64,000 bases of DNA from Terriglobia bacterium (GTDB lineage: Bacteria > Acidobacteriota > Terriglobia > Terriglobales > Acidobacteriaceae). The notes under the pieces are model-generated. The model was not told the origin of the DNA. It saw nothing but the letters and a program-made list of their open reading frames with translations, and ran no database searches. Numbering within the stretch: the first letter of the stretch is position 1; each line of letters starts with the position of its first letter. Shown here one piece after another: positions 44,173 to 64,000 of this stretch. The position numbers and the translations under genes were made by a program. Where the stretch lies: contig JAIQFF010000002.1 of the NCBI GenBank assembly GCA_020073395.1, forward strand, positions 1 through 64,000, written 5' to 3'.

Positions 44173-44294
44173 GTGTGGGACGGACACTCTTGTCCGTCGC
44201 TTTTGACGTTGGTAGTGCAGCCGATTTTCAGGTCCAGGTCCGTCCACATTGAAGTCGAAGTCAAAGGCGACGGACAAGAGTGTCCGTCCCACAC
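44173..44294. repeat. Dispersed palindromic element, family A (copy 5)
   Basis: GTGTGGGACGGACACTCTTG opens a 28-bp arm (44173-44200) whose perfect complement is at 44267-44294. TTTTGAC and GTCAAAG flank the interior. It separates the convergent mutarotase and hypB genes, and its last base begins the TAG stop of hypB. Confidence 0.9.
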
Positions 44295-44986
44295 TAAACG
44301 GCTGCCATGGTTCGTGACTCAGCCAGCCGTTCTGCCAGGAATCCCAAGTACTCTTCGACTCCCTCTCCGGTCTTGGCGGAAAGCTGAAAGACGCGCATGC
44401 CTGGGCGGACGGCCTGAATGTTGCGCCGCGTGGCTTCTGAGTCGAACTCAACCGCCTCAGCCAAGTCGCTTTTGGTGATGATCGCCACATCCGCACTGTT
44501 GAAAATCGTCGGGTACTTGAGCGGCTTGTCTTCGCCCTCCGTCACCGACAGTAGCACCACGCGAAGATCTTCTCCCAGATCGTAGGACGAAGGACAGACC
44601 AGGTTGCCCACGTTCTCGATGAAGAGGAAGTCCAGTTGGCCGAGGTCCCATCCCTCTTCGTCCACAGCACGCTGCACCATGGCGGCCTCCAGGTGACAGA
44701 GAGTCCCCGTAATGATCTGCTTCACCGGGGCCAGGCTGCGAGCCAGTCGCGCCGCATCATTTTCTGTCGCGAGATCGCCGACCAGGGCAGCCACACGATA
44801 ACGCGGGCGAAGCAGGGTCAGCGTCTTTTCGAGGAACGCGGTCTTGCCCGACCCGGGGCTCGAAACCAGGCTCACCACGAACACCCCCGCAGCGTGAAAA
44901 CGAGTGCGAAGGGCGCGGGCCACGACATCGTTCTGCTTCAACACGTTCTTTCGAATTTCCACCAGCCGGGGTTCCGGACTCATCAC
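44294..44986 (-). CDS. hypB: [NiFe]-hydrogenase nickel-insertion GTPase HypB
   Basis: HypB delivers nickel to the large subunit with HypA and GTP hydrolysis. The 230-residue protein has the P-loop SSPGSGKTA (residues 42-50), a CHLEAAMVQRAVDE metal-site region and KSDLAEAVEFD for guanine binding. It lacks the N-terminal His-rich nickel store seen in some HypB proteins. Its ATG overlaps hypA by 4 bp. The stop codon abuts a family A palindrome. Confidence 0.94.
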   Translation of the reverse strand: MMSPEPRLVEIRKNVLKQNDVVARALRTRFHAAGVFVVSLVSSPGSGKTAFLEKTLTLLRPRYRVAALVGDLATENDAARLARSLAPVKQIITGTLCHLEAAMVQRAVDEEGWDLGQLDFLFIENVGNLVCPSSYDLGEDLRVVLLSVTEGEDKPLKYPTIFNSADVAIITKSDLAEAVEFDSEATRRNIQAVRPGMRVFQLSAKTGEGVEEYLGFLAERLAESRTMAAV

Positions 44987-45324
44987 TGTATCTCCAATGC
45001 CACCACTTCAAGTTCCTTGCCGTGGACGATCTCAGAAGTCGGCGTACCGCATTCCGCACAGCAAAATAGTTGAACCGAACTGAGAGGCCTCTGCACTTTG
45101 CAATGCGGACAAAAGATCACTACCGGCACATCCTCGATAACCAGGCGCGACCCCCGCAGCGGCGTATCGTCGCAGGCCATCTCGTAGGACGAGAGCAAAG
45201 CCTCCTTCACCACGCCGGAAAGCGCCCCCAGCTTGAGGTGCACCGCGTTCACTTGCACGCCCCGCTGCAGAGCCTCTTCCTGCGCCATTTCGACAATGCT
45301 CATCGCGATGGAGAGTTCATGCAT
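44983..45324 (-). CDS. hypA: Hydrogenase nickel/zinc metallochaperone HypA
   Basis: HypA binds nickel through His2 of MHELSIAM and carries a structural zinc site formed by two CxxC pairs at residues 72/75 (CPHC) and 89/92 (CAEC). It is 113 residues, the usual size. It overlaps hypB by 4 bp downstream, and its first 25 bp overlap the extended end of hypF. Confidence 0.94.
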   Translation of the reverse strand: MHELSIAMSIVEMAQEEALQRGVQVNAVHLKLGALSGVVKEALLSSYEMACDDTPLRGSRLVIEDVPVVIFCPHCKVQRPLSSVQLFCCAECGTPTSEIVHGKELEVVALEIQ

Positions 45325-47738
45325 GTAGTCTTCCCCGCGCCACCTACGCCCCCTCGACTAGCGTCGTCCTGAGGGACTTCAGTCCCGAAGGATCTCGCGC
45401 ATACTGCAACAATCGCCGGCCCAGGCCTCGATCCGCTGCACGCCAGATCCTTCGCAAGCTCAGGATGACGCCTGGTATGAAGTATGGGAGGCACAAACGC
45501 CGCCAGAGCCGCCTGCCCCAGGCTTATCCCTCCGTCATTCGGCGGCACCGCATGATTCGTCCAAATGCACAGCGGCTCTGCCGCAAACAGCGATTTGACA
45601 TCCTCAAGCAACAGCTCGTTCTGGAATACGCCTCCCGACAGGACGATGGTGTCCAGAGCGTGCGCGTGGCAAAGGGCGATCACACAACCCCTCAGAGCCG
45701 CGGCAACTCCTCGCTGGAAGGCCCGCGCAATCTCGCCCGGGTCCCGGCCGCGCTGGCGATCTTCGATCACGCCCTGCAGCAACGGCCGGAAATCCAACTC
45801 CGTTCCAGTAAAGGGAAAGGTATACGCCTCAGTGATACCGGCTCCGCGCGCCAGCTGTTCCAACCACATTGCAGCCTGCCCTTCAAAAGAAATTTCCCGC
45901 GTAAACCCCAGCAAGGCTGCAACCGTATCGAAAAGCCGGCCCATCGAAGTGGTGGAGAAAGTCCGCACGCCCTTCGTCACTAACTCTACGGCGTTCAAGA
46001 ATCGCTCGGGAAAGTTGAAGGGTGCCGCAGTCAAGTCCGGCAAAGCATCCAGCTGCGCCAGAAATCCGGCCGCGGCCTGAACCGGGTATTGCGCTGCGGC
46101 ATCCCCGCCGGGAAGCGCGGCAGTACGAAGATGAGCAACGCGCTCAAAGCCATCCCTGACGGTGCCCACAAAAATCTCGCCGCCCCAGATGCTGCCGTCG
46201 TCTCCGTAACCTGTGCCGTCGAAGCTCACTCCCAGCACGCGCTTGTCCCACTCGCCGTGTTCCGCCAGCACGGACGCCACATGCGCCCGATGATGCTGCA
46301 CCGCTACCGTCCGAGGAGCCCCCAGCTCCGAAGCGTGAAGCGCCGAAGCATACCGCGGATGACAATCATGAGCCACCAGGACTTCATCCCAATCAACCTC
46401 GTACATCGCCACCAGATCGGAGATGGTTTCCTGAAAAGCGCGGAATGCCTCGTAGTGTTCCAGGTCCCCAATGTGCTGGCTGACAAAGGCCTGGCCGTCC
46501 ACCACCAGCGTGATTGTGTTTTTCAGGTCTGCCCCCAGCGCCAGAATCGGCCGCTGGCACGGCACCTTGGCCACAGCCCCGGGAGCATAGCCGCGAGATC
46601 GGCGCAGGATGACGGGGCCGAAAGCGCCATCGCGCACAACCGAATCGTCAACCCGGCGTGCGATGGGTCGCTGCCCAATCAAAAATGCATCCGCTATACC
46701 GGAGAGCCGCTGGAGCGCATCCTCGTCATCGTAGGCAATGGGTTCACTGGAACGGTTGGCGCTGGTCATCACCAAAGCTTCCGGCGCGCCGGCCGCAAAC
46801 AGCAAATGGTGCAAGGGAGTGTAAGGCAGCATCACTCCCAGTTCATTATTTTGCGGGGCTACTCCGGCCAGTCCGACTTTCGCTGGCGCCAGGACAATGG
46901 GGCGAGCGGCAGAAGTGAGCAGCGCTTCGCTCTCCGAGGAAAGCTCCACCAGGCTGTGGGCTCCATCGAAGTCCCGAACCATCACCGCGAATGGCCTCTC
47001 CTTGCGATATTTGCGCTCGCGCAAAGCCGCCACGGCCGCGGGGTTGCGGGCATCGCAAGCCAGGTGATATCCACCCAGCCCCTTCACTGCGACTATCTTT
47101 CCGGCAATCAGAAGGTCAGCCACATGACGAATGGCGGTTTCCGTTCCAGGGATGGTCTGTGCTTGCGGCTGCAGATAATAACTGGGGCCGCAGGCCGGGC
47201 AGGCAACGGGTTGGGCATGAAATCTGCGGTTGCCTGCATCGATGAATTCTCCGGCACAATAGTCGTCCAGCGGCCAGTCTTTCATGGTGGTGTTGGGCCG
47301 GTCGTAAGGCAGAGCAAGGACGACGGTGTAACGCGGACCGCAGTTGGTGCAGTTGATGTAGGGATAACCGTAGCGCGGATTGCGAGGATCGAAGAGTTCC
47401 CTGAGGCAATCATCACACACCGGCAGGTCAGGCGAAATCCGGACCGTCGGCCGCTCCCGGTGCTGGCTTTCCCGGATGGTAAATCCGCTCACCCCGAGAG
47501 GTGTGACTTCCTGTACATCCATCTCCGCAATGCTGGCGGCGGGCGGCGGCTGTGTCTTCATCTCGTGCACAAACGCTTGCAGCCCCTGCTCTGCGCCTTC
47601 CAGATAAATCTCGACGCCTTCCTCGCCATTCAGCACCCATCCCCCGAGGGTGTTGGCGCGAGCCAGGCGATACACGAACGGACGGAAGCCCACACCCTGC
47701 ACCACCCCGCGGACCCGGATGGAACAGGCACTGGCCAT
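45300..47738 (-). CDS. hypF: Carbamoyltransferase HypF with repeat-derived C-terminal tail
   Basis: HypF makes the thiocarbamate precursor of the cyanide ligands from carbamoyl phosphate. The domains are present in order: acylphosphatase (RGVVQGVGFRPFVYRLA), two zinc fingers (CDDCLRELFD/CTNC and CAGEF/CPAC), a YrdC-like domain and a Kae1-like domain with HHRAHVASVLAEHG and FDGTGYGDDG. The natural end should be near GISLGQAALAAF. The last 45 or so residues are encoded by a family B repeat (45362-45470) and then run into hypA. The start at 47738 gives 812 residues. Confidence 0.93.
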   Translation of the reverse strand: MASACSIRVRGVVQGVGFRPFVYRLARANTLGGWVLNGEEGVEIYLEGAEQGLQAFVHEMKTQPPPAASIAEMDVQEVTPLGVSGFTIRESQHRERPTVRISPDLPVCDDCLRELFDPRNPRYGYPYINCTNCGPRYTVVLALPYDRPNTTMKDWPLDDYCAGEFIDAGNRRFHAQPVACPACGPSYYLQPQAQTIPGTETAIRHVADLLIAGKIVAVKGLGGYHLACDARNPAAVAALRERKYRKERPFAVMVRDFDGAHSLVELSSESEALLTSAARPIVLAPAKVGLAGVAPQNNELGVMLPYTPLHHLLFAAGAPEALVMTSANRSSEPIAYDDEDALQRLSGIADAFLIGQRPIARRVDDSVVRDGAFGPVILRRSRGYAPGAVAKVPCQRPILALGADLKNTITLVVDGQAFVSQHIGDLEHYEAFRAFQETISDLVAMYEVDWDEVLVAHDCHPRYASALHASELGAPRTVAVQHHRAHVASVLAEHGEWDKRVLGVSFDGTGYGDDGSIWGGEIFVGTVRDGFERVAHLRTAALPGGDAAAQYPVQAAAGFLAQLDALPDLTAAPFNFPERFLNAVELVTKGVRTFSTTSMGRLFDTVAALLGFTREISFEGQAAMWLEQLARGAGITEAYTFPFTGTELDFRPLLQGVIEDRQRGRDPGEIARAFQRGVAAALRGCVIALCHAHALDTIVLSGGVFQNELLLEDVKSLFAAEPLCIWTNHAVPPNDGGISLGQAALAAFVPPILHTRRHPELAKDLACSGSRPGPAIVAVCARSFGTEVPQDDASRGGVGGAGKTTCMNSPSR
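45362..45470. repeat. Family B inverted repeat inside the hypF 3-prime end
   Basis: CGTCGTCCTGAGGGACTTC with CGAAGGATCT faces CAGATCCTTCGCAAGCTCAGG and GATGACG. The element lies within the open frame of hypF and supplies its C-terminal extension. Related copies are at 56638-56815 and, as single arms, 29161 and 30064. Confidence 0.7.
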
Positions 47739-47740
47739 GG

Positions 47741-47977
47741 TCACTCCACGTCCACGATGCAGCTGTGTCCTTGCCAACCTACCTGGACGACTTTCCCATC
47801 TTCCACCAGCAGTGGGACGTTGCGCTGTCCGCGCGCCACTTCGCGCATGCGCCCGCGGGCCACGGGATCGGCTTCGACGTCGTACTCCACAAATTCGGAA
47901 CGCTTCCATTCCAACCAATCGCGCATTTCGCCGGTGTAGGGGCAGCGCGCGGTGCCGTAGAGTTCAAGCTTGGCCAC
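47741..47977 (-). CDS. Small thioredoxin-fold protein, UXX-star-like
   Basis: This 78-residue protein resembles glutaredoxins and the UXX-star (seleno)protein group: LELYGTARCPYTGEMRDWL with a CPYT redox-type motif (Cys12), then GQRNVPLLVEDGKVVQVGW with the cis-Pro and a final CIV. A GTG start at 47977 has GGAGG 9 nt upstream and overlaps the SIS gene by 14 bp. It lies between the SIS gene and hypF (2-bp gap), so a redox or thiol role in hydrogenase assembly is likely but unproven. Confidence 0.72.
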   Translation of the reverse strand: MAKLELYGTARCPYTGEMRDWLEWKRSEFVEYDVEADPVARGRMREVARGQRNVPLLVEDGKVVQVGWQGHSCIVDVE

Positions 47978-49148
47978 GGTCGAGTACCTCCAGCGATTCG
48001 CGGATGACGTGATAAATCGAAGCCTGGATTTCCTGGATGCGAGGAATGTAATCGCATTGCACCACCACGGGAAAGTCCGCCAGGCGCTTGCGTTTGATTT
48101 CGCCACCGTCGTATCCCAGCAGCGCCACACTCAGCAGGTTCCGTTTGCGGGCTTCTTCGAGGGCCATGATGATGTTGCGCGATCCGCCGCTGGTCGAGAT
48201 CGCGATCGCAACATCTTCCGGACGGGCCTGCGCGATCAGCTGGCGCAGGAAGATCGCCTCCGTCCCAATATCGTTGGCCACGGCTGTGATGTTGGCCGGC
48301 TCGAGAGCCAGCGACACGGCAGGAACCGGTTTAAAGCCCAGCGGGGGAAGAACGCAATCAATGGCCCAGTCGTTGGCGTCAGTTGCCGAGCCGCCATTGC
48401 CAAAGATAATGAGTTTGCCGCCACGCTGCAGCCGTTGATGAATTGCCAGCGCGGTGTTGCTGATTTGCTCGGCTTCTATGCGCGCCACCTGGCCGCGCAA
48501 CCTGGCATCGTCATGCACCTTCATCAGGATGGACGTTGCGACCTCAGCCAGCAGGTCCGTGGTTCCCTGTTTTTCCGTACCCAGGAAGGGATAGAGAAAT
48601 CCCGATTCGCCCACCTCATGGCCCAATTCGCGATGCTCGAAGAAGACGTGCACGGTTTCCCACAGCGTGTGGTAAAGAATTTCAACCATCTCCTGGTGCA
48701 TGAATGGATCTTGTGTGGGAGCACCGAGCGCGTAGGAACCCTCCATGCCGGGGAGGGCAAACGTCATAGCGTCCTGCAAGTGGGCCAGTTGCAAAGTCGC
48801 CCAGACTTCGGGATCGCCTTCGGGCGGCCCGAATCCCATGACGATATCCTCCGGATGCAGTATGGCCTCGAGCCAGGGGCGGAACAGAATTGACAAATCC
48901 AGAGCGGGGAGAGCGCGCTTTCCCACGATCACAGGATGAACGAATTCCACCGAGACATGTTGCGCGTCGGTGGCGTAAGGACCGCGCCCGAAGGCGAGAA
49001 GACGCCCTCCACGCAGAAACCGTTCTGACATCTCGCGGCAAGCTTCGGCCAGGCGCGCCGCTTCGCGTGAGAAGAACTGTTCGTAAATTTCGTTCCGCTC
49101 GAGCAGCCGCTCTTCCACCTGACTTGTGAGTTCAACCGTTGTCGCCAT
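47964..49148 (-). CDS. Double SIS-domain protein in the hydrogenase operon
   Basis: This 394-residue protein contains two SIS (sugar isomerase) domains. The C-terminal one (about residues 205-394) resembles phosphoheptose isomerase GmhA, with GGKLIIFGNGGSATDANDWA and AISTSGGSRNIIMAL. The N-terminal one (residues 25-195) is degenerate: GGRLLAFGRGPYATDAQHVS keeps the outline but lacks the STSG loop. It lies between hypE and the redoxin gene. Similar proteins accompany high-affinity hydrogenases, but their reaction is unknown; a phosphosugar-binding or scaffold role is a guess. Confidence 0.78.
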   Translation of the reverse strand: MATTVELTSQVEERLLERNEIYEQFFSREAARLAEACREMSERFLRGGRLLAFGRGPYATDAQHVSVEFVHPVIVGKRALPALDLSILFRPWLEAILHPEDIVMGFGPPEGDPEVWATLQLAHLQDAMTFALPGMEGSYALGAPTQDPFMHQEMVEILYHTLWETVHVFFEHRELGHEVGESGFLYPFLGTEKQGTTDLLAEVATSILMKVHDDARLRGQVARIEAEQISNTALAIHQRLQRGGKLIIFGNGGSATDANDWAIDCVLPPLGFKPVPAVSLALEPANITAVANDIGTEAIFLRQLIAQARPEDVAIAISTSGGSRNIIMALEEARKRNLLSVALLGYDGGEIKRKRLADFPVVVQCDYIPRIQEIQASIYHVIRESLEVLDRGQA

Positions 49149-49160
49149 ATCGTTTTCCGG

Positions 49161-50285
49161 TTAACAGATGCGCGGCAGAGGATCTCCCACCAGCATATCC
49201 ACGATGCGGCTGCCTCCGTAACGGGTTGTTACAAGCACCGTGCCCGCCGGCTGTTCGCGAACTTCGCCGATCACCTGGGCTTCGCTGCCGCCCGGCGCCA
49301 GGCTCAGGGCATTGATTGCAGCGTCGGCATACTCGGGCGAGACCACGGCGAGGAATTGGCCCTCGTTCGCAATGTGCAGGGGATCGAGTCCCAGCAACTC
49401 ACATGCGCCGCGCACCATGTCACGCACCGGAATCTGATCTTCAAAGAGAACCATGCCCAGTCCGCAATCCCGCGCCAGCTCGTTTAAGGATGTAGCCGCA
49501 CCGCCCCGGGTTGGATCGCGCATCCAGCGAACGCCCGGGCCTGCGGCTCGAACCAGGGTCTCGACCAGAGACAGCACGGAGCGCGTGTCAGACCGAAGAT
49601 CAGCTTCGAGGTCGAGCTCGCCGCGCGCCAGCAGGATGGTGATGCCGTGATCGCCGATCGGCCCGGAAAGCAGAATCTTGTCGCCGACACGCACCGAGCG
49701 CGGATCGATGGTGACGCCGCGAAGCGGACAACCAATGCCAGTGGTGGTGACGTACATCTGGTCGGCCTTGCCGTGCTCGACCACTTTGGTGTCGCCACCG
49801 GCGATGCGAACACCCGCGTCCCGCGCGGCTTTTGCCATGGCGCGAACTTCGGCCTCGAGCACCGGCGTAGGCAGCCCGGCTTCGAGCACAAAGGTGACTA
49901 CCAAGGCTTCAGCCCGGGCTCCTGAGACCGCGAGATCGTTCACCGTGCCGTTCACGGCAAGTTCGCCGATGGATCCGCCCGGAAAGGTCAGCGGCTTGAC
50001 TACAAAGCTGTCAGTCGTGATCGCGACTTTGCTCCCGTTGATGTCGATGTGCGCGGCGTCTCCCAAAGGCCCGGGGGCAGATCCAAAAAGCAGGGGAGCA
50101 AAAAGACCTTCGACCAGCTTGCGGCTGGCCTTACCTCCGGCTCCGTGAGCCATCTCGATTTGGGGATCGCGAAACCGGATGGGCACCGGCCTGGCATCGA
50201 CAGCAGCCTGATCGTCTAGGCGATCGAAGTCAGGCTGGTCGCCATTGCTGCCTTCCGGTGTTCGTAGTTGTGATAAGCGGCGCAT
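49161..50285 (-). CDS. hypE: Hydrogenase cyanide-ligand maturation protein HypE
   Basis: HypE dehydrates the thiocarbamate on its C-terminal cysteine to a thiocyanate and passes cyanide to iron on HypC/HypD. The ATP-dependent PurM-like fold shows MAHGAGGKASRKLV, TTDSFVVKPLTFPGG, RIAGGDTKVVE and MRDPTRGGAATSLNELA, and ends in the functional PRIC. The start is uncertain: the ATG at 50285 overlaps hypD by 70 bp, while a GTG at 50186 would give a more usual N-terminus. Confidence 0.92.
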   Translation of the reverse strand: MRRLSQLRTPEGSNGDQPDFDRLDDQAAVDARPVPIRFRDPQIEMAHGAGGKASRKLVEGLFAPLLFGSAPGPLGDAAHIDINGSKVAITTDSFVVKPLTFPGGSIGELAVNGTVNDLAVSGARAEALVVTFVLEAGLPTPVLEAEVRAMAKAARDAGVRIAGGDTKVVEHGKADQMYVTTTGIGCPLRGVTIDPRSVRVGDKILLSGPIGDHGITILLARGELDLEADLRSDTRSVLSLVETLVRAAGPGVRWMRDPTRGGAATSLNELARDCGLGMVLFEDQIPVRDMVRGACELLGLDPLHIANEGQFLAVVSPEYADAAINALSLAPGGSEAQVIGEVREQPAGTVLVTTRYGGSRIVDMLVGDPLPRIC

Positions 50286-51346
50286 GATCCTTCCGATGAC
50301 ACCATGAGCGCGCCGACAGGATGCTCCGGCGTGCACTCACGGCCAAAGAGTTTACACTGGTGCGGCTTCAGCACGCCCTTCAGGACTTCCCCGCATTGCG
50401 CGGCTTTGGGATCGGTCACTCGAATGCCCGGAACCTCAAAGCGCTGCTCCGTGTCCCAGGCGGCATATTTGTCGTTCAGGCGAAGTGCCGATTGCGAGAT
50501 AAATCCCAGGCCCCGCCATTCGAAATAGGGGCGTAACTGGAAAACCTCGGCCATGGCACGAAGAGCGGCACGGTTGCCTTCCCAAGGTACGACTCGCTTG
50601 TACTGGTTCTCGACTTTGGCTTCGCCTGCTCTCAGCTGACGCAGCAGCATGACGATCGACTGCAACATATCGAGCGGCTCAAAGCCGGAGACCACAATGG
50701 GTTTGTCCTGGTCCTTGGCAATCCACTCGTAGGGACGGCAGCCAATGACAGTCGAGACATGCCCGGGGCCGATGAATGCGTCCAGACGCATATCTGGCGA
50801 ATCGAGAATCGCCCGGATCGCAGGGATGATAGTTACATGATTGCAGAATACAGAGAAATTCTGGATGCCCTCAGTTTTGGCGCGCATCAGCGTGAGCGCG
50901 GTGGAAGGCGCCGTGGTCTCAAACCCGATAGCGAAAAACATGACGTGCTTCTCGGGGTTGAGCCGGGCAAGCTTCAGAGCGTCTGATGGCGAATACACGA
51001 TGCGGACGTCCATCCCGCGGGCTTTATGCTCGAGCGGGCTGCCCTGGGTCCCGGGAACGCGCATCATGTCACCGAAGGCGGCAAAGATTACGTCTGGTTG
51101 TTGCGCGATGGACAGGCCATCGTCAATGCGCCCCATGGGAAGCACGCAGACCGGACAGCCCGGCCCGTGGATCAGTTCGATATTTTCCGGGAGGATGTCT
51201 TTGAGGCCGAAGCGATAGATAGCATGAGTGTGACCGCCGCAGACTTCCATGAGGCGGTAGTACCGGTCGCTCCCGGCCAGGCGGCGGATTTCCTCCGCGG
51301 TTCGTGAAATCAGTTCGGGCTCGCGGAACTCATCAACAAATCTCAT
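50216..51346 (-). CDS. hypD: Hydrogenase Fe(CN)2CO assembly protein HypD
   Basis: HypD is the iron-sulfur scaffold on which Fe(CN)2CO is built with HypC. The ATG at 51346 follows GGGAGGA at ideal spacing and gives 376 residues. Conserved parts are MEVCGGHTHAIYRFG, HGPGCPVCVLPMG, FAIGFETTAP and FCNHVTIIPA. C-terminal cysteines for the [4Fe4S] cluster are in AAQCGEVLKG, HQCKLFGREC and GSCAAY. It lies 36 bp after hypC. Confidence 0.94.
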   Translation of the reverse strand: MRFVDEFREPELISRTAEEIRRLAGSDRYYRLMEVCGGHTHAIYRFGLKDILPENIELIHGPGCPVCVLPMGRIDDGLSIAQQPDVIFAAFGDMMRVPGTQGSPLEHKARGMDVRIVYSPSDALKLARLNPEKHVMFFAIGFETTAPSTALTLMRAKTEGIQNFSVFCNHVTIIPAIRAILDSPDMRLDAFIGPGHVSTVIGCRPYEWIAKDQDKPIVVSGFEPLDMLQSIVMLLRQLRAGEAKVENQYKRVVPWEGNRAALRAMAEVFQLRPYFEWRGLGFISQSALRLNDKYAAWDTEQRFEVPGIRVTDPKAAQCGEVLKGVLKPHQCKLFGRECTPEHPVGALMVSSEGSCAAYHNYEHRKAAMATSLTSIA

Positions 51347-51382
51347 GCCGATCCTCCCTCGCAAGCTGGACGCCGGCAGGCG

Positions 51383-51721
51383 TCAATTCACTTCGGCGTC
51401 ATTCACTTCGGCGTCATCGATTTCGGCGTCACTTATTTCGACGTCATCTATTTCCTCCAGGCCGTATCCCTGGACTTCCTGCATGGCTCCATCGATCTCT
51501 CCCAGCGCCCGGAGGGTATTCATCTGGTCGAGAGCGTCGCCCTCGCTGATCTTGCTCATGGCAAAACCGACATGGATGAGCACCCAGTCGCCGGGCACGG
51601 GTCTGTCGTCCTGCAGCAGGCCGAGATCAATCTTGCGCCGGACGCCGGCTACGTCAACCAGCGCGGACTCCGCATTGTCGCCGGAGATTTCGACGATCTT
51701 TCCTGGTATGGCTAGGCACAT
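51383..51721 (-). CDS. hypC: HypC chaperone with acidic repeat tail
   Basis: HypC carries the Fe(CN)2CO unit to the large subunit through its N-terminal cysteine, MCLAIPGKIVEI. The start at 51721 removes unrelated upstream sequence. The OB-fold core ends near residue 85 (EIDGAMQEVQG). Residues 92-112 are an acidic tail made of five-residue units such as DAEVN, DAEVN, DAEID and DVEIS, encoded by 15-bp tandem repeats. Usual HypC proteins have 75-95 residues and no such tail. Confidence 0.92.
   Translation of the reverse strand: MCLAIPGKIVEISGDNAESALVDVAGVRRKIDLGLLQDDRPVPGDWVLIHVGFAMSKISEGDALDQMNTLRALGEIDGAMQEVQGYGLEEIDDVEISDAEIDDAEVNDAEVN
51386..51460 (-). repeat. 15-bp tandem repeat encoding the HypC tail
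   Basis: On the plus strand ATTCACTTCGGCGTC occurs at 51386 and 51401, then ATCGATTTCGGCGTC at 51416, ACTTATTTCGACGTC at 51431 and a degenerate fifth unit. The period is kept in frame, giving acidic pentapeptides. Confidence 0.9.
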
Positions 51722-51868: not shown

Positions 51869-52450
51869 TCAAGCTTTATGAGCGTTGATGTCAAACGAGA
51901 GCTTGAGCTCGTCCTTCAGCTTTATCGTGCCCCCGGCGGCGGTCACTGGGCTGATTTGATAATCGCTCTGGCGCACGGAAAACTCTCCGGCGGCGCGCAA
52001 AGTGTCATCCTTCAGCGTCACCCGCGCCAAAACCGGCTGATCCCGGGTCTCTCCGTGCAGCGAGAGTTCCCCGTTCAGCGCAACCACATACAACCCCTCG
52101 CCCATCTTCCGGACTGATGATACCCGGGGGCATTCGTAAACGATTTCCGGGAAGCTACCGGCCTCCAGGACCTCGTCATGCATTTTACGCTCTATCTCAT
52201 GGCGGTCCTTATCGCTTATGTCATCGGTCACAGTCAGCGAAGAGGCCTGAATCGCCAGGCGAAGAGACGCATCCTCCAGGGCATTTGAATTCCACCGGAC
52301 CTCGCCCTCGAAGTCCCGGACTGCAATCTTCGGGCTATGGGCGAATGCCGAAAGCATCCCAGTGGCAAACGCCCGGACAATAAATGTACTCCTGGCGGCA
52401 TCAATTAGATATCGAACCGTGGCCGTTTGAGGCGTTCCGACTGTGGTCAA
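51869..52450 (-). CDS. YceI-family lipid-binding-like protein
   Basis: This 193-residue protein has the YceI lipocalin-like fold: YLIDAARSTFIVRAFA at the start, LSAFAHSPKIAVRDFEG, a central HDEVLEAGSFPEIVYEC and a final DELKLSFDINAHK. YceI proteins bind polyisoprenoids or other lipids. Unlike many, it has no signal peptide, so it should act in the cytoplasm. The start is a TTG at 52450 and is not certain. It lies between the small membrane protein gene and hypC in the hydrogenase operon, where its role is unknown. Confidence 0.8.
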   Translation of the reverse strand: MTTVGTPQTATVRYLIDAARSTFIVRAFATGMLSAFAHSPKIAVRDFEGEVRWNSNALEDASLRLAIQASSLTVTDDISDKDRHEIERKMHDEVLEAGSFPEIVYECPRVSSVRKMGEGLYVVALNGELSLHGETRDQPVLARVTLKDDTLRAAGEFSVRQSDYQISPVTAAGGTIKLKDELKLSFDINAHKA

Positions 52451-56968: not shown

Positions 56969-58765
56969 TCAGGGTTGAAGACCGAACATCGGGGAATGGT
57001 GCGTCTCCAGCACCTTGCCGTTCCCCAGATACATGTGCACGCCGCAAGGCAGACACGGATCGAAGCTCCTTACCGCGCGCATTATATCGATTCCCTTGAA
57101 CTTGTCAGGGCCGTTTTCCTCAAAGATCGGGGTATTCTGCACCGCGTCCTCGTACGGACCCGGAGTGCCATAGATGTCACGGGGATTGGCATTCCAGGGA
57201 GTTGGAGGATAGGGATGGTAGTTGGCGATCTTACCCTCTTTGATCACCACGTGGTGCGAGAGCACGCCGCGTACCGCCTCGTGGAAGCCGCAGCCAATGG
57301 CCTCCTCAGGCACTTTGAATTCGGTCCAGGTCTTGGTGTGTCCAGCATGTAACTCCGCCAGCGCCTTTTCCATGAAATGAAGTGCAGCGCAGGCAGCATA
57401 GACCTGGAAGTATGTCCGGGCGCGGTCGCGTTCGATAGCGTTGCTCCACTTAGGAATCTTCCATTCAAACTCGACCTCGGGCAGCGAGGTGGTCTTGGGC
57501 AGGTACATCTTTACGCTGCTGCCGGTGGCCTTGATGTATCCGATGTCCACCAGCCCGGCCAGCGCGGTCGTCCACAGGCGAGCGATTGGTCCACCTCCGG
57601 TATCCATCGCCAGGTGGTCACCAGTGCGCTTGTCGAACCACCGCGGGGACATGACCCATGTGTACTTGCCGCCAAAGTCACGCTTCTGCGGCCGCGGGAT
57701 CGTGGTCTGGTTCCAGGGATGGTTCTTGTCCACCGGATTGCCGAGAGGGTCTGTCTTGACGAAAGTTTGCGAGTTCTTCCACTCGTCGTAGTAAGAACTG
57801 CCCAGGAGAATCCGGATATTCAGGTTGATGTCCACCAGATCGGTGGTCACCAGCTTGCCATCCACCACGATGCCCGGGGTGACGAACATGCCGCGGCCCC
57901 AGTTCGTCATGTTCTTATAGGTGTAATCGCAGACGTCGGGATCATTGAACGATCCCCAGCAAGCCAAAAGGACACGCCGCCTACCGACTTCTTCGTAACC
58001 GGGGAGGGCATCGTAGAAGAAATCGAACAAGTCGTCGTGCAGTGGCACCACCTTCTTCATGAACTCCACATACTTCATCAAGCGGACCAGGTAGTCAGTA
58101 AAAAGCTGGACGGTGGGCACCGTGCCCACGCCGCCCGGATACAAAGTGGAGGGATGGACGTGCCGGCCTTCCATCAGGCAGAACATCTCCCGTGTCATGC
58201 GGCTCATGACCAGGGCCTCGCGATAGAAGGCTCCGGTAAACGGATTGAGGGCGGTCATGATGTCAGCAATGGTGCGGTAGCCATGCGCACTGGCGTGGGG
58301 CGCCGCCGTGGATTGAGCTTTGGCCCAGACTTTGGGATTGGTTTCCTTGACCATCTGCTCGCAGAAATCCACGCCGACCAGATTGTCCTGGAAGATATTG
58401 TGGTCGAACATGTACTCGGCAGCCTCGCCAAGATTGACGATCCACTCCGCGATCGGAGGCGGCTTGACCCCAAACGCCATGTTCTGCGCGTAGGTGGCGC
58501 AGGTGGCGTGGTTGTCGCCGCAAATGCCGCAGATGCGGCTGGTGATGAAGTGAGCGTCGCGCGGGTCTTTACCTTTCATGAAGATGCTGTACCCGCGAAA
58601 AATGGACGAGGTGCTGTGACACTCGACCACATGCTTGTTCTCGAAGTCGATCTTGGTAAAAATGCCCAGGCTGCCCACGATCCGAGTAATCGGGTCCCAG
58701 TTCATTTCCACCAGGTTCCCCTTTTTTCCGGGGGCGTCCTTCGTCGGTGCGGTAATAGTGCTCAT
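56969..58765 (-). CDS. hhyL: Group 1h [NiFe]-hydrogenase large subunit
   Basis: This 598-residue catalytic subunit carries the nickel-iron site. The L1 motif is SRICGICGDNHATC (Cys79, Cys82) and the L2 motif is FDPCLPCGVHM (Cys571, Cys574). Both fit the high-affinity group 1h (formerly group 5) type that oxidises trace H2. A 21-residue tail after His577 should be removed by the maturation protease encoded downstream. AAGGAG lies 7 nt before the ATG, and the small-subunit gene precedes it by 32 bp. Confidence 0.95.
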   Translation of the reverse strand: MSTITAPTKDAPGKKGNLVEMNWDPITRIVGSLGIFTKIDFENKHVVECHSTSSIFRGYSIFMKGKDPRDAHFITSRICGICGDNHATCATYAQNMAFGVKPPPIAEWIVNLGEAAEYMFDHNIFQDNLVGVDFCEQMVKETNPKVWAKAQSTAAPHASAHGYRTIADIMTALNPFTGAFYREALVMSRMTREMFCLMEGRHVHPSTLYPGGVGTVPTVQLFTDYLVRLMKYVEFMKKVVPLHDDLFDFFYDALPGYEEVGRRRVLLACWGSFNDPDVCDYTYKNMTNWGRGMFVTPGIVVDGKLVTTDLVDINLNIRILLGSSYYDEWKNSQTFVKTDPLGNPVDKNHPWNQTTIPRPQKRDFGGKYTWVMSPRWFDKRTGDHLAMDTGGGPIARLWTTALAGLVDIGYIKATGSSVKMYLPKTTSLPEVEFEWKIPKWSNAIERDRARTYFQVYAACAALHFMEKALAELHAGHTKTWTEFKVPEEAIGCGFHEAVRGVLSHHVVIKEGKIANYHPYPPTPWNANPRDIYGTPGPYEDAVQNTPIFEENGPDKFKGIDIMRAVRSFDPCLPCGVHMYLGNGKVLETHHSPMFGLQP

Positions 58766-58797: not shown

Positions 58798-59862
58798 TCA
58801 GTAAGACCGTGGGTGGTACCCGGTGGTCAGTTCTGCGCGCGGATGACGCCACTTGGGCTCCTTGTTGACCGTGGACTGAGTCATAGAACGCAGGGCACGA
58901 ATCGCGCGGCCATAAGCGCCGACGGCTGAACTCGAGACCCGGGCGCCTGGCGGTTCATCCATAAAGGGCATAAATTTGTCGGGGAATCCAGGCATGGTGC
59001 AGCCGATACAGATACCGCCTACGTTGGGACATCCGCCGATTCCGGCCATCCATCCGCGCTTGGGCACGTTGCAGTTCACTACCGGGCCCCAGCATCCCAA
59101 TTTCACGATGCATTTCGGGGAGCCATACACTTCCGCGAAATCGCCTTGCTCGTAGTAGCCGGCGCGATCGCAACCTTCGTGGACGGTCTTGCCAAACAGC
59201 CACGTGGGGCGCAGTTCATCGTCGAGCGGAATCATGGGAGCCAGTCCCGCCACCTGATAAAGAAGATAGAGGACAGTCTCCATGAAGTTGTCCGGCTGCA
59301 CCGGGCATCCTGGAACATTGACGATGGGCAGACCGGCTTTAGACCTCCAGTCCCAACCCAGGTAGTCCGCCAGACCCATGGCGCCAGTGGGATTGCCTTC
59401 CATAGCATGAATGCCGCCGTAGGTGGCGCAAGTCCCGCAGGCAACCACGGCGAGTGCCTTGGGTGCCAGACGGTCAATCCACTCATTGGTGGTGATGGGC
59501 TGACCGGTCGTGGGATCGGTTCCTAGCCCTGCCCAGTAACCTTCTTTCTTTATTTTCTCGTTGGGAATGGAACCTTCGACTACCAGGACGAAGGGATCCA
59601 GCTGACCTTTCTCCGCCAGGTACCAGAATTTCAGGAAGTCATCTCCGTTCTCATAAGCCAGGACGGGATTGTGCAGGTGTACTTTGGGAAGGCCGGGAAT
59701 TGCTCCCAGCAGAACATCTTCGATACTGGGTTGACTAGCCGCGGTGACCGAAACCGAGTCTCCGTCACAGCCCAAACCGGCGGTGATCCAGAGAATGTGT
59801 ACTTCGGCGACTGGCGATGGTTTTTGCGTTTTCCGACCGTACGGAACCGTTTCCGCTGCCAT
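58798..59862 (-). CDS. hhyS: Group 1h [NiFe]-hydrogenase small subunit
   Basis: This 354-residue subunit relays electrons from the active site through three iron-sulfur clusters. Cysteines are at Cys32 (LGCDGDSV), Cys142/145, Cys186 (VPGCPVQ), Cys231, Cys251/257, Cys264, Cys278 and Cys285/288. The CDGD stretch supplies the Asp that, in group 5 enzymes, helps bind the proximal cluster beside three Cys. No twin-arginine signal is present, so the enzyme faces the cytoplasm. AAAGGAGAG precedes the ATG. Confidence 0.95.
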   Translation of the reverse strand: MAAETVPYGRKTQKPSPVAEVHILWITAGLGCDGDSVSVTAASQPSIEDVLLGAIPGLPKVHLHNPVLAYENGDDFLKFWYLAEKGQLDPFVLVVEGSIPNEKIKKEGYWAGLGTDPTTGQPITTNEWIDRLAPKALAVVACGTCATYGGIHAMEGNPTGAMGLADYLGWDWRSKAGLPIVNVPGCPVQPDNFMETVLYLLYQVAGLAPMIPLDDELRPTWLFGKTVHEGCDRAGYYEQGDFAEVYGSPKCIVKLGCWGPVVNCNVPKRGWMAGIGGCPNVGGICIGCTMPGFPDKFMPFMDEPPGARVSSSAVGAYGRAIRALRSMTQSTVNKEPKWRHPRAELTTGYHPRSY

Positions 59863-60250: not shown

Positions 60251-60943
60251 TCACGCCGTCTTTTCGTCCATGTTCCACTGGATGGCATGCTGCATGAGTT
60301 CGCGCGCGCTGCGCAGGGACAATTTTTCCTTGATATGCGCCTGATAGGATTCGACCGTCTTGACGCTTATGTGCAATTCTTCGGCAATCTGCCGGGTACC
60401 GTGGCCTTCCCCGATCAAACGAAACACTTCCAGCTCGCGATCGCTCAGGTCGGCGATGGAGGAGTGGCGCAGCGTGCCCGATCCGGTGATGTAGTGTTTC
60501 AGCATCCGGTTGGCGACACGGTCGCTCACGTAGATCTCGCCGCCCAGGATGCGGCGCAGCGCCACCAGCACCTTTTCTGTTGCCTCCTGCTTCATGATGT
60601 AGCCATTCGCACCCGCCCGTAGCGCGCGCTCCGCATAGATTGACTCGTCGTGCATGGAGAGGATCAGCACCGGGAGCGTCGGGTACAGATTCCTTATGTT
60701 CTTGAGCAGATCAAGCCCGTCTGGACCATTCAGGGAAATGTCCACGATGAGAACGTCCGGCTTGGCGGAAGCCAGCACGTGCATGGCGCCGCTGGCTTCT
60801 TCGGCCTCACCGCAAACCACCAGGTCGGTTTCCTGATTGATGAGCAACGCCAATCCCTGGCGCACAATGGGATGGTCGTCCACCACCAGGATTCTGCTCT
60901 TTCTCACTGCGACGTGGTCCTGAACCTTGTGAGATGAGTTCAT
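60251..60943 (-). CDS. NarL/LuxR-type response regulator
   Basis: This 230-residue regulator has a receiver domain (VVDDHP, phospho-acceptor Asp68 in LIVDIS, LSMHD, Lys in IMKQEA) and a LuxR-type helix-turn-helix (LSDRELEVFRLIGEGHGTRQ, then VKTVESYQAHIKEKL). The ATG at 60943 lies 5 bp after the kinase stop, so the two are cotranscribed. Placement directly upstream of hhyS and the nearby palindrome suggest that it controls the hydrogenase operon, which is an inference. Confidence 0.92.
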   Translation of the reverse strand: MNSSHKVQDHVAVRKSRILVVDDHPIVRQGLALLINQETDLVVCGEAEEASGAMHVLASAKPDVLIVDISLNGPDGLDLLKNIRNLYPTLPVLILSMHDESIYAERALRAGANGYIMKQEATEKVLVALRRILGGEIYVSDRVANRMLKHYITGSGTLRHSSIADLSDRELEVFRLIGEGHGTRQIAEELHISVKTVESYQAHIKEKLSLRSARELMQHAIQWNMDEKTA

Positions 60944-60948
60944 ATTTC

Positions 60949-62928
60949 TTAGTCCTCGACCGGAAACAGGCAAGTAACCGTGGTCCCACCGGCGTCGCCC
61001 GGTTGTATCTGCAGCGCAGCTCCGATCATCCTGGCCCGGTAGTTCATAAGATGAAGTCCCATGCCCACGCCTTTGCCGGGAAGCTCCGGAATACCCGTGC
61101 CGTCATCCTCAATTACCAGGGCGCCCTGACCCCGAGCAGCCGCGAGACGAATCACGATGTGCTCAGGCCGGCCATGTTTGATGGCGTTGTTCACGGCCTC
61201 CCGCGCAATATAGTAGAGATGAGTCGCCATGGCGTCATCATGAATCAGCACAGGAGTGAAGCACTCGAAGCGGCACGAAACCCCAAACAAGTCCTCCACC
61301 TCTCCCGCCCGTTGCTGGAGCGCCGACATCAGCCCCCGCGCATCGGACACCACCGGCAGCAGGCCGCGTGCCAGTTCCCGCGTCTTATTAATGGCCTCAT
61401 TCACCAGCTTCACGATCTTGGCCGCGTCTCCGGCCTCCGGCAAGCCCTTTTCGACAAGCTTCTGTTCCTGCACCTTACTCATGAATGCAATACCGGTAAG
61501 ATGCTGTCCCAGGCCATCGTGTAGATCCTGTCCGATCCGACGCTGCTCCCGCCCGCTGATCTCAAGAATGGTTTTCTCCAGGTGCTTGCGCTCCGTGATG
61601 TCGCGGATGGCGCTCGAAACCAGCACCCCTTCCTCGGTTTCCAGCGGGCTTAAGCTGATCTCCACCGGAAATTCGTGGCCATCCTTGTGCAGGCCGTAGA
61701 GCTCCGCGCCAGCTCCCATAGGCCGGACTCGCGGCTCTTCGAAGAAAGTCTTCCGGTGCTCCGAGTGCTTGCGTCGCAGCCGCGCCGGCACCAGCAATTC
61801 GAGCTCTTGCCCTAGCAGCGCCTCCCGGTGATAACCGAACAACTTCTCCACCTGGGCGTTGACCAGGACAATCTTGCCTTCTCGATTGACCACCACTACG
61901 GCGTCCGGCGCGGCTTCCAGCAGGCCACGAAATTTCGCCTCGGCCCGTTTGCGCTCCGTAATGTCAATGCCCGAAGCGATCACGCAACTCACAGCTTCGT
62001 TGGCACCGGGGAGGGTCGTGGTCGACCATGCGATGATCCTCTGCCGGCCGTCTCGACAAACCCATCGGCTTTCGTACTCATTGGGGCGCTCGTCGGCGCG
62101 GGTTTTCTGGAACGACGCTTTGAAATGTTCCACTTCTTCCGGAATCAGAAACAGGTCCCAAATACACTGTCCGCGAACTTCCTCGAAAGAATACCCCGTC
62201 ATTTGCTCACAAGCCCGGTTAAAGCGGATGATCCTGCCTTCCGGGTCGAGCACCACCACCAAAGCTCCCACAGTGTGGAGGATGGCGGAGACCACATTGC
62301 GCTCTTCCTGCAGAGCCTCTTCCGTCCGCTTCAGGTCGGTGATGTCAAATCCCACTCCGTGAATGAACCAGGGCTCGCCGTCTGCCTTGCGAATCATCTT
62401 GGCTTCGCAATGAAACCAGATCACGCGGCCGTCTCGCGCCACCACGCGATAGGCCGAGCGCAGGGGATTGCCGGTAAGAAACATCTCGGCCGCTTCGGTG
62501 CTCCAGCGCTGCTTGTCGTCCGGGTGGATATGGCTATACCAGCGCACCGGGTCCTCTAACCACTCCTCCTGGGAAAATCCCAGCGCGGCTTCGATCTGCG
62601 GACTCACATAGGCTTCGCCGATGCCACGATCGAGATAGGCCATGAATACGACGGCAGGAATCTGCTCAACCAGGGCGCGATATCTTGCTTCCAGATTGGG
62701 GAGCTGCGGATCCGCGGCCGGAGCGATGCCTGGCTTTTCCGGCGGATACACAATGCGCCGGGCAATGCTGGGATCCTGAGTAAAGACTCCCGCCAGCTCC
62801 TGGAGAATTTCCTCAGCCTGCGCAGGATCAAGCTCCGGGTCGGCCAGCGCCACCGGACGGAGTATGGGGCGGACACTCTTGTCCGCCGCCTTTGACTTGG
62901 ACTCCGGCATTCCTAAACTCATTTCCAC
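60949..62928 (-). CDS. Soluble multi-PAS sensor histidine kinase (NarX-like output)
   Basis: This 659-residue kinase has no membrane segment. It carries three PAS domains (about residues 75-205, 210-330 and 335-455), a HisKA_3 domain with [19 protein letters not shown] (phospho-His in DLHDG) and an HATPase domain. It resembles kinases that sense redox or gases in the cytoplasm, but no haem- or flavin-binding residue can be assigned. The first 20 residues ([14 protein letters not shown]) are encoded by a family A repeat arm, so the N-terminus may be recent. The first codon is GTG; an ATG lies two codons later. Confidence 0.9.
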
Positions 62929-63077: not shown

Positions 63078-64000
63078 TCAACGGGGGCGCTTGCGCCATC
63101 CTGGCTCTTTGTTGAGCGACGACTGCGTAAAGCGGCGCAACGCGTGAATCGCACGTCCATAAGTTTGGACGGCTGCGGAGGACAAAAGCGACCCTGGCGG
63201 CTGATTCATGAACGGCATGAATTTGTCGGGAAAGCCCGGCATGGTGCAGCCGATACAGATTCCGCCGATATTCGGACAACCTCCGATCCCGCCCATCCAA
63301 CCTCGCTTACCGACATTGCACTGGACCACCGGGCCCCAGCATCCCAGCTTGACGATGCACAGGGGCGATCCATATTCGTCGCCAAATTGCGCCTGCTCGT
63401 AGTACCCTCCACGATCGCATCCCTCGTGCACAGTGCTGCCAAACAGCCAGGTGGGACGCAACGCCTCATCCAGGGGAATCATGGGCGCCCGCCCGGCCGC
63501 CATGTGCAGCAGGTACAACAACGTCTCCATGAAATTGTCCGGCTGCACCGGACACCCCGGCACGCATACGATGGGAATATCCGCCTTCGAACGCCACTGC
63601 CAGCCCAGGTAATCCGCAAGGCCCATGCAGCCCGTGGGATTTCCTTCCATGGCATGGATACCGCCGTAGGTGGCGCAGGTCCCTGCCGCAATCACGGCCC
63701 AGGCCCTGGGCGCCAGACGATCGACCCATTCGCAGGTGGTGATCGGTTGCCCGGTCTTTGCGTCGGTGCCGAATGAAGCCCAATACCCTTCCTCTTTATT
63801 GGTTTCGTCCGGAATCGATCCTTCGATGACGAGAATAAAAGGTCCCAGCATATCCTGTGCCGCCAGGTGAAAACGCCGCATGAAGTCGTCGCCATTTTCA
63901 ACAGCAAGGAAGGGATTGAGGAAGTTGACTTTGGGAATCCAGGGCAGGGCGCCGGTCACGATGTCTTCGATACTGGGCTGGGTGGCCGCCGTCATGGCAA
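63078..64000 (-). CDS. Second group 1h hydrogenase small subunit (partial, runs off the window)
   Basis: This protein is closely similar to the small subunit at 58798-59862 over its whole visible length. It shares TAATQPSIEDI, ACGTCATYGG-like AAGTCATYGGIHAMEGNP, VPGCPVQPDN, KLGCWGPVVQCNVGKRGW and GGICIGCTMPGFPDKF, and all cluster cysteines seen in that region are kept. The frame remains open past 64000, where the first proximal-cluster Cys should lie; an in-frame ATG at 63995 is probably internal. No large-subunit gene follows it downstream; the sensor kinase gene does. Confidence 0.9.
   Translation of the reverse strand, partial: AMTAATQPSIEDIVTGALPWIPKVNFLNPFLAVENGDDFMRRFHLAAQDMLGPFILVIEGSIPDETNKEEGYWASFGTDAKTGQPITTCEWVDRLAPRAWAVIAAGTCATYGGIHAMEGNPTGCMGLADYLGWQWRSKADIPIVCVPGCPVQPDNFMETLLYLLHMAAGRAPMIPLDEALRPTWLFGSTVHEGCDRGGYYEQAQFGDEYGSPLCIVKLGCWGPVVQCNVGKRGWMGGIGGCPNIGGICIGCTMPGFPDKFMPFMNQPPGSLLSSAAVQTYGRAIHALRRFTQSSLNKEPGWRKRPR

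Follow-up and report, generated by a model that had tools for sequence, protein, structure and literature searches.

Why should the genes that assemble the cofactor of a [NiFe]-hydrogenase enclose a protein with two sugar-isomerase (SIS) domains together with a small redoxin? The source of the CO ligand in organisms without HypX and the reductant of HypD (PMC12134894), as well as the source of the iron (PMC10847431), have been named as gaps in the account of how the [NiFe] cofactor is built, and aerobic scavengers of atmospheric H2 have to assemble this cofactor in air. The gene pair studied here was encountered in the group 1h hydrogenase locus of a soil acidobacterium of the Terriglobales type, within a stretch of 64,000 nucleotides (hereafter the window, to which coordinates refer unless a locus is named). 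The analysis indicates that the pair is real and conserved, and its sequence context suggests that it is most likely accessory to Fe(CN)2CO assembly.

The gene pair and its inheritance with the hyp genes

All genes of the locus lie on the minus strand, in the order hhyS-hhyL, group 1h accessory genes, hypC, hypD, hypE, the gene for the double-SIS protein (dSIS), the redoxin gene, hypF, hypA, and hypB. The small and large subunits of the hydrogenase, HhyS (58798..59862) and HhyL (56969..58765), are followed downstream by hypC (51383..51721), by hypD (50216..51364), which carries the canonical motifs MEVCGG, GPGCPVC, and GFETT, and by hypE (49161..~50267), the product of which ends in PRIC. On the other side of the pair are hypF (~45300..47738), hypA (44983..45324), and hypB (44294..44986). 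The dSIS gene occupies 47964..49148 (394 aa; ATG at 49148, end of the stop codon at 47964) and the UXX-star-type redoxin 47741..47977 (78 aa; GTG at 47977, end of the stop codon at 47741), such that the two genes share 14 bp (47964..47977), with a GGAGG upstream of the redoxin GTG. The overlap and the position between hypE and hypF therefore stand as given in a preliminary description of this DNA, and the pair is inherited with the hypCDEF genes.

All 20 acidobacterial loci that span the junction share an overlap of exactly 14 bp, and a purine-rich, Shine-Dalgarno-like stretch (mostly GGAGG) lies just 5' of the redoxin ATG or GTG in 19 of them, the exception being L020; this constancy indicates that the arrangement is not due to chance. 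The overlap amounts to 8 bp on a Thermus plasmid, and in one acidobacterium (G086) the genes are ~110 bp apart without overlapping. Mean identity to the window across the acidobacterial loci is 79% for dSIS and 75% for the redoxin, on par with the neighboring hypE (81%) and hypF (72%).

Several other features of the region may be recorded. A YceI-like protein (51869-52450) is encoded between a protease gene and hypC in most loci, at times in two copies (L003, L006, and L107). A second, orphan HhyS-like small subunit (63078-63995, the gene extending to contig position 64097; 339 aa) is 72-74% identical to HhyS, in a genome with a single HhyL match; it is separated from hhyS-hhyL by genes for a PAS histidine kinase and a response regulator (60251-62928), and a second hhyS is likewise found upstream in L107, L121, and L078. 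Together with the kinase and regulator, this orphan subunit is possibly an H2 or redox sensor.

A divided SIS protein within a hyp-specific family

The two halves of dSIS correspond to SIS domain 1 (48600..49148, residues ~1-183) and SIS domain 2 (47964..48599, residues ~184-394), both on the minus strand. The Pfam SIS_2 model clearly matches the second half and only weakly matches the first (20 bits versus a cut-off of 27), in agreement with a previous reading of the protein as one intact and one degenerate SIS domain. The comparison with the phosphoheptose isomerase GmhA, in which H64, E68, Q175, and H183 bind Zn and paired sites are connected through D61 (PMC5705639), nevertheless shows that domain 1 has not decayed. 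It holds the GmhA metal-ligand positions in 26 of 26 sequences (H64, E68, Q152, and H160 in the window) and the channel aspartate D61 in 25 of 25, and it contains the longest invariant stretch of the protein, TDAQHVSVEF-x-HPVIVGKRALPALD, including the signature that reads VEFVHPV in the window. What it lacks are the GNGGS and STSGxS phosphate loops. These are held by domain 2 in 26 of 26 sequences (GNGGS and ISTSGGS in the window), which also retains Q372 and H380 and carries aspartates (D260 and D264) where the first two ligands would be. Decay of domain 1 is thus ruled out by the invariant tetrad and stretch, and as judged from the aligned sequences the split between the domains is a division of labor after duplication.

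Structure prediction (pTM 0.86) yielded two SIS domains in one chain that are predicted to pack as a pseudo-dimer. The best full-length structural match of the model is the double-SIS protein GKRP (Z 28.8 over 355 residues), the isomerase domain of GlmS also matches over the full length (Z ~27), and the second half alone superposes on a phosphoheptose isomerase structure with Z 24.6 and an rmsd of 1.5 Å over 177 residues. If the two halves pack as modeled, they would probably form one composite metal-plus-phosphate site.

The relatives of dSIS are found in other hyp operons. Profile-profile comparison aligned its first half with the single-domain SIS proteins encoded there at 99.7% probability, and every SIS protein detected within a hyp cluster bears the signature VEFxHP[VI] (in domain 1 in the case of dSIS and in the first gene of a mycobacterial pair), which is absent from all acidobacterial and E. 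coli GmhA-type proteins in the comparison. Of ten single-domain hyp-SIS, nine have the full set of ligands and loops, and the remaining one differs by one loop residue; because these single-domain proteins hold every motif, dSIS resembles a duplicated and divided site. A tree of 55 SIS domains placed the 23 GmhA sequences included in a separate group (support 100/99), joined dSIS domain 1 with the first SIS of Mycobacterium intracellulare (94/95), and joined domain 2 with the second (99/96); the first M. intracellulare SIS has a long branch, and its exact place is therefore less certain. In line with this separation, dSIS (134.0 bits) and two single-domain hyp-SIS (148 and 157 bits) all score below the curated equivalog cut-off of the GmhA model TIGR00441 (209.45). 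Score, clade, signature, and genomic place together rule out an ordinary GmhA for lipopolysaccharide heptose.

As in dSIS, the elements are split between the two members of the mycobacterial pair: the first SIS retains H, E, and H but not the loops, one of the four metal ligands being missing at the aligned position, and the second retains the loops. Moreover, the first M. intracellulare SIS is fused to a downstream HypC-like domain (PF01455, 44.9 bits). This fusion in one mycobacterial protein provides a direct link of the hyp-SIS family to the HypC-HypD scaffold. Such a fusion, of a SIS domain of the first-domain type and a HypC-like domain, is recorded at L055 9881-10591 in a gene annotated as HypC family.

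Distribution across cassettes, phyla, and hydrogenase groups

Every dSIS locus that was read over its full length shows the order hypC-D-E-dSIS-redoxin-F, and this extends to the plasmid-borne cassettes of Thermus thermophilus SG0.5JP17-16 and Sulfobacillus acidophilus, which lie beside group 2a-like hydrogenases (a label assigned to the Thermus, Sulfobacillus, mycobacterial, and alphaproteobacterial clusters by neighborhood and similarity). In Cupriavidus pHG1, Afipia, Bradyrhizobium, Mesorhizobium, Novosphingobium, and Sphingopyxis, a single hyp-SIS gene separates hypC from hypD; in Methylocystis it stands between hypF and hypD, and several acidobacteria have it between hypD and hypE. Retention inside hypC-F modules across phyla, as expected of a maturation factor, was hence observed for hyp-SIS and dSIS alike. 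Since these genes occur among hypC-F in several phyla and with various hydrogenases, the family is tied to the Fe(CN)2CO gene module and not to group 1h. Two further observations concern the plasmid cassettes. An apparent frameshift breaks the Sulfobacillus dSIS frame (L054 14001-15127), for which the record has no annotation. An extra short HypC-like protein is encoded 5' of hypD in the dSIS cassettes of Thermus, Sulfobacillus, and one acidobacterium (L053 11606-11833, L054 11515-11748, and L079 11904-12086), that of Thermus with an internal Cys-x-x-Cys; no such gene was found before hypD in the group to which the window belongs.

Co-occurrence with the group 1h enzyme was assessed in a family sample of 300 genomes, among which 42 encode HhyL, 24 encode dSIS, and 19 encode both. 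HhyL is present in 19 of the 24 dSIS genomes versus 23 of the 276 without dSIS (odds ratio 42, p = 2e-14, with related genomes not being independent), and the five dSIS genomes without an HhyL match are mostly incomplete assemblies. The two genes are thus associated in this sample. An exclusive link is not supported: group 2a-like cassettes carry dSIS, and dSIS is present in only 19 of the 42 HhyL genomes, which rules out a pair specific to group 1h. Among HhyL genomes with a readable hyp cassette, dSIS is present in ~20 and a single hyp-SIS in 8, and 13 contain neither; in these 13 acidobacterial genomes a hyp-type SIS was not found anywhere. The gene is therefore dispensable or replaceable, and group 1h maturation does not in general depend on it. 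None of 18 acidobacterial genomes searched yielded an additional hypD or a hyp-type SIS at another site: each gave a single hypD match, and the SIS genes outside their hyp cassettes all lack the VEFxHP signature.

Genomes of one genus (g4) illustrate how such differences may arise. Their HhyL is ~87% identical to that of the window, yet two types of hyp cassette are present: type A, with a HypD ~82% identical to that of the window and with dSIS and redoxin, and type B, with a HypD only 47-49% identical and either a single hyp-SIS (G217) or none (G094 and G163). The combination of similar hhyL but divergent hypD (L074/L075 versus L076/L077) points to cassette exchange. In G210, a type A cassette that otherwise looks complete has a dSIS shrunk by internal deletion to a short remnant (L104 9480-9640) beside an intact redoxin gene, and HhyL was not found in this genome.

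On the NCBIfam Uxx_star model (NF041212, cut-off 66) the redoxin of the window scores 65.2 bits, and three of four orthologues exceed the cut-off (L001 67.2, L018 78.8, and Thermus 75.0 bits, versus L010 64.8). The active site is CPYT (as in the window) or CPHT, with C12, T15, and C73 invariant, and the model shows a compact glutaredoxin-like fold (pLDDT 92), that is, a (U/C)xxT motif in a short glutaredoxin fold. Outside intact dSIS cassettes the redoxin was found with the dSIS remnant of G210 and as weak matches in G075, G137, and G208. Hyp-SIS without redoxin is common, and a table entry for Parageobacillus gives the order hypC-D-E-'GST N-terminal domain'-F, apparently a similar small gene without SIS (PMC12976888). 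The two proteins therefore need not act together.

Candidate roles and comparison with known systems

The idea that the locus encodes an extra maturation step agrees with the placement of the pair within hypCDEF, with the hyp-specific SIS genes beside hypC, hypD, or hypE in several phyla, and with the mycobacterial HypC fusion. The association of dSIS with HhyL (19 of 24 versus 23 of 276 genomes) and the dSIS remnant of G210, where HhyL was not found, likewise speak for a role in maturation. On balance, we lean toward the pair acting as accessory maturation factors of one Hyp cassette, engaged at or close to the HypC-HypD scaffold during the Fe(CN)2CO stage and not in nickel insertion or proteolysis; the placement of dSIS at HypCD is suggested by gene neighborhood and by the one fusion. 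A single-domain, GmhA-like hyp-SIS would have been duplicated, domain 1 retaining the metal-ligand tetrad and domain 2 the phosphate-binding loops, and the two domains, predicted to pack as in double-SIS proteins, would share one composite site; dSIS most likely serves HypCD by binding or converting a phosphorylated metabolite. In HypD, a pair of redox-active cysteines is needed for hydrogenase activity (PMC9900092), and what donates electrons to the HypD cluster is a stated gap (PMC12134894), which makes the redoxin a natural guess for a thiol donor to HypD. The redoxin, which appears to be translationally coupled to dSIS, most likely keeps a thiol of HypD or of dSIS reduced in aerobic cells.

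What dSIS would supply is a matter of more tentative choice. The specific role that we prefer, and still regard as unlikely, is replacement of HypX: in aerobes without this enzyme, dSIS or a single hyp-SIS would derive the CO ligand, or a precursor of it, from a phosphorylated metabolite. Aerobes that have HypX use it to make the CO ligand, and where the CO comes from in its absence is an acknowledged gap (PMC12134894). The SIS genes in question are located solely among hypC, D, E, and F, and a search of the phylum sample gave no HypX match in its 13 genomes with HhyL; HypX occurs in 2 of 247 Acidobacteriota genomes, both without HhyL. On plasmid records, which together with published papers constitute the actinobacterial evidence, HypX lies near hhyL in Kitasatospora, Embleya NBC_00896, and Streptantibioticus (S. 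cattleyicolor), with no SIS there. Nine plasmid records, from the two lineages Cupriavidus (pHG1) and Bradyrhizobium (seven plasmids), carry both hyp-SIS and HypX, 54-88 kb apart and in separate hydrogenase clusters, and no single cluster with both was seen. This mutual absence fits replacement but is suggestive only, as it is confounded with lineage and hydrogenase type. Moreover, HhyL is encoded in G094, G163, G063, and G196 in the absence of both hyp-SIS and HypX, which rules out as a strict rule that SIS always replaces HypX; a Streptomyces BHT-5-2 locus has neither gene as far as its plasmid is concerned. To our knowledge, no SIS enzyme makes CO, which also weighs against this role.

Metal delivery and sugar-phosphate sensing are near-equal alternatives to CO supply, and each is improbable when taken singly. 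If dSIS handled iron, its tetrad-bearing domain would be a metal carrier for HypC/HypD and the phosphate domain a gate. This would account for a domain 1 with all ligand positions and no phosphate loops, and for the fusion of its mycobacterial relative to a HypC-like domain, and the iron source is described as a gap (PMC10847431). It is harder to reconcile with the metal of GmhA, which is Zn and catalytic (PMC5705639), with the apparent use of Isc for the iron in E. coli (PMC10847431), and with the ligand missing from the mycobacterial first domain. As a regulatory sensor, dSIS would bind a sugar phosphate and gate maturation by protein contact, as GKRP does with glucokinase. A double SIS with one phosphate site kept and with GKRP as its best structural match would suit such a role, and group 1h hydrogenases serve carbon starvation. 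A fold match to GKRP, however, shows no function, and the single hyp-SIS keep a complete GmhA-type catalytic set that a pure sensor would not need.

That the two genes merely ride with the operon as passengers is the least probable reading: many group 1h loci lack both and earlier annotation had named them just gmhA and glutaredoxin 3, but they are as conserved as core hyp genes with order and overlap fixed, show a hyp-specific signature and, in one relative, a HypC fusion, and recur in the same cassette across phyla. Returning to the preferred role at HypCD, its fullest form, a HypX-independent, metal-dependent, divided-site dSIS feeding the CO ligand (or iron) to HypCD in aerobic H2 scavengers with the redoxin as thiol donor, is offered as a long shot. 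A hyp-specific SIS family with predicted site residues makes these cofactor questions testable, its carriers including Cupriavidus necator H16 and, by annotation, Mycobacterium smegmatis, and the distribution suggests hyp-SIS as a candidate gene to add for hydrogenase expression in foreign hosts.

Genes of this kind have been listed before. According to the legend of Fig. 5 in Eichorst et al. (2018), gmhA (putative phosphoheptose isomerase) and glutaredoxin 3 genes occur in acidobacterial group 1h loci, which that figure compares with those of Streptomyces and Pyrinomonas (PMC5900883). GmhA is listed among the maturation proteins of Acidithiobacillus (PMC7735108), MSMEG_2706 gmhA is listed with the hyp genes of M. 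smegmatis (PMC5445863), and a Saccharopolyspora hydrogenase operon contains two gmhA genes that were mutated along with hypD in an industrial strain (PMC3359211). The literature searched contained no functional or mutant study of hyp-linked SIS genes, and SIS is not mentioned in the parts of a 2025 review consulted here. The presence of gmhA-like and glutaredoxin genes in group 1h loci is thus previously known (PMC5900883); new, as far as searched, are the family signature, the divided double-SIS architecture, the linkage to one cassette in different hydrogenase groups, the fusion to HypC, and the tally of loci without hyp-SIS.

Among known systems, GmhA (TIGR00441) shares with dSIS the SIS_2 fold, the ligand positions (domain 1), and the phosphate loops (domain 2), but combines ligands and loops in one subunit, whereas in dSIS the elements are divided over two domains in 26 of 26 sequences; GmhA also has an AEL..R loop where dSIS has VEFxHP, and the two belong to separate clades. 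The single-domain 'gmhA'/SIS proteins of hyp clusters (Cupriavidus pHG1 and Bradyrhizobium) share VEFxHP and the hypC-D-E-F location with dSIS and differ in having one domain with complete motifs and no adjacent redoxin; the Acidithiobacillus 'GmhA' and M. smegmatis MSMEG_2706 are likened to them from paper descriptions (PMC7735108; PMC5445863). The split pair of M. intracellulare has, by the tree, the same two paralogous domains as dSIS and is hyp-linked, but consists of two genes, with a HypC-like fusion and no redoxin, and the two gmhA genes of S. erythraea, known by description (PMC3359211), are probably similar to it. GKRP and the GlmS isomerase domain have two SIS in one chain in a similar whole-chain arrangement (Z 27-29), at 10-14% identity and with no known link to hydrogenases. 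UXX-star (seleno)proteins share the glutaredoxin-like fold and CxxT site with the redoxin, which is a hyp-linked Cys form, and published discussion of the known families concerns metals or unknown substrates (PMC13188914). Finally, HypX is, like dSIS, an optional accessory in the hyp clusters of aerobes, with unrelated domains and chemistry: it combines formyl-transferase and enoyl-CoA-hydratase-like domains, while the pair described here shows only the SIS and glutaredoxin/GST-N families.
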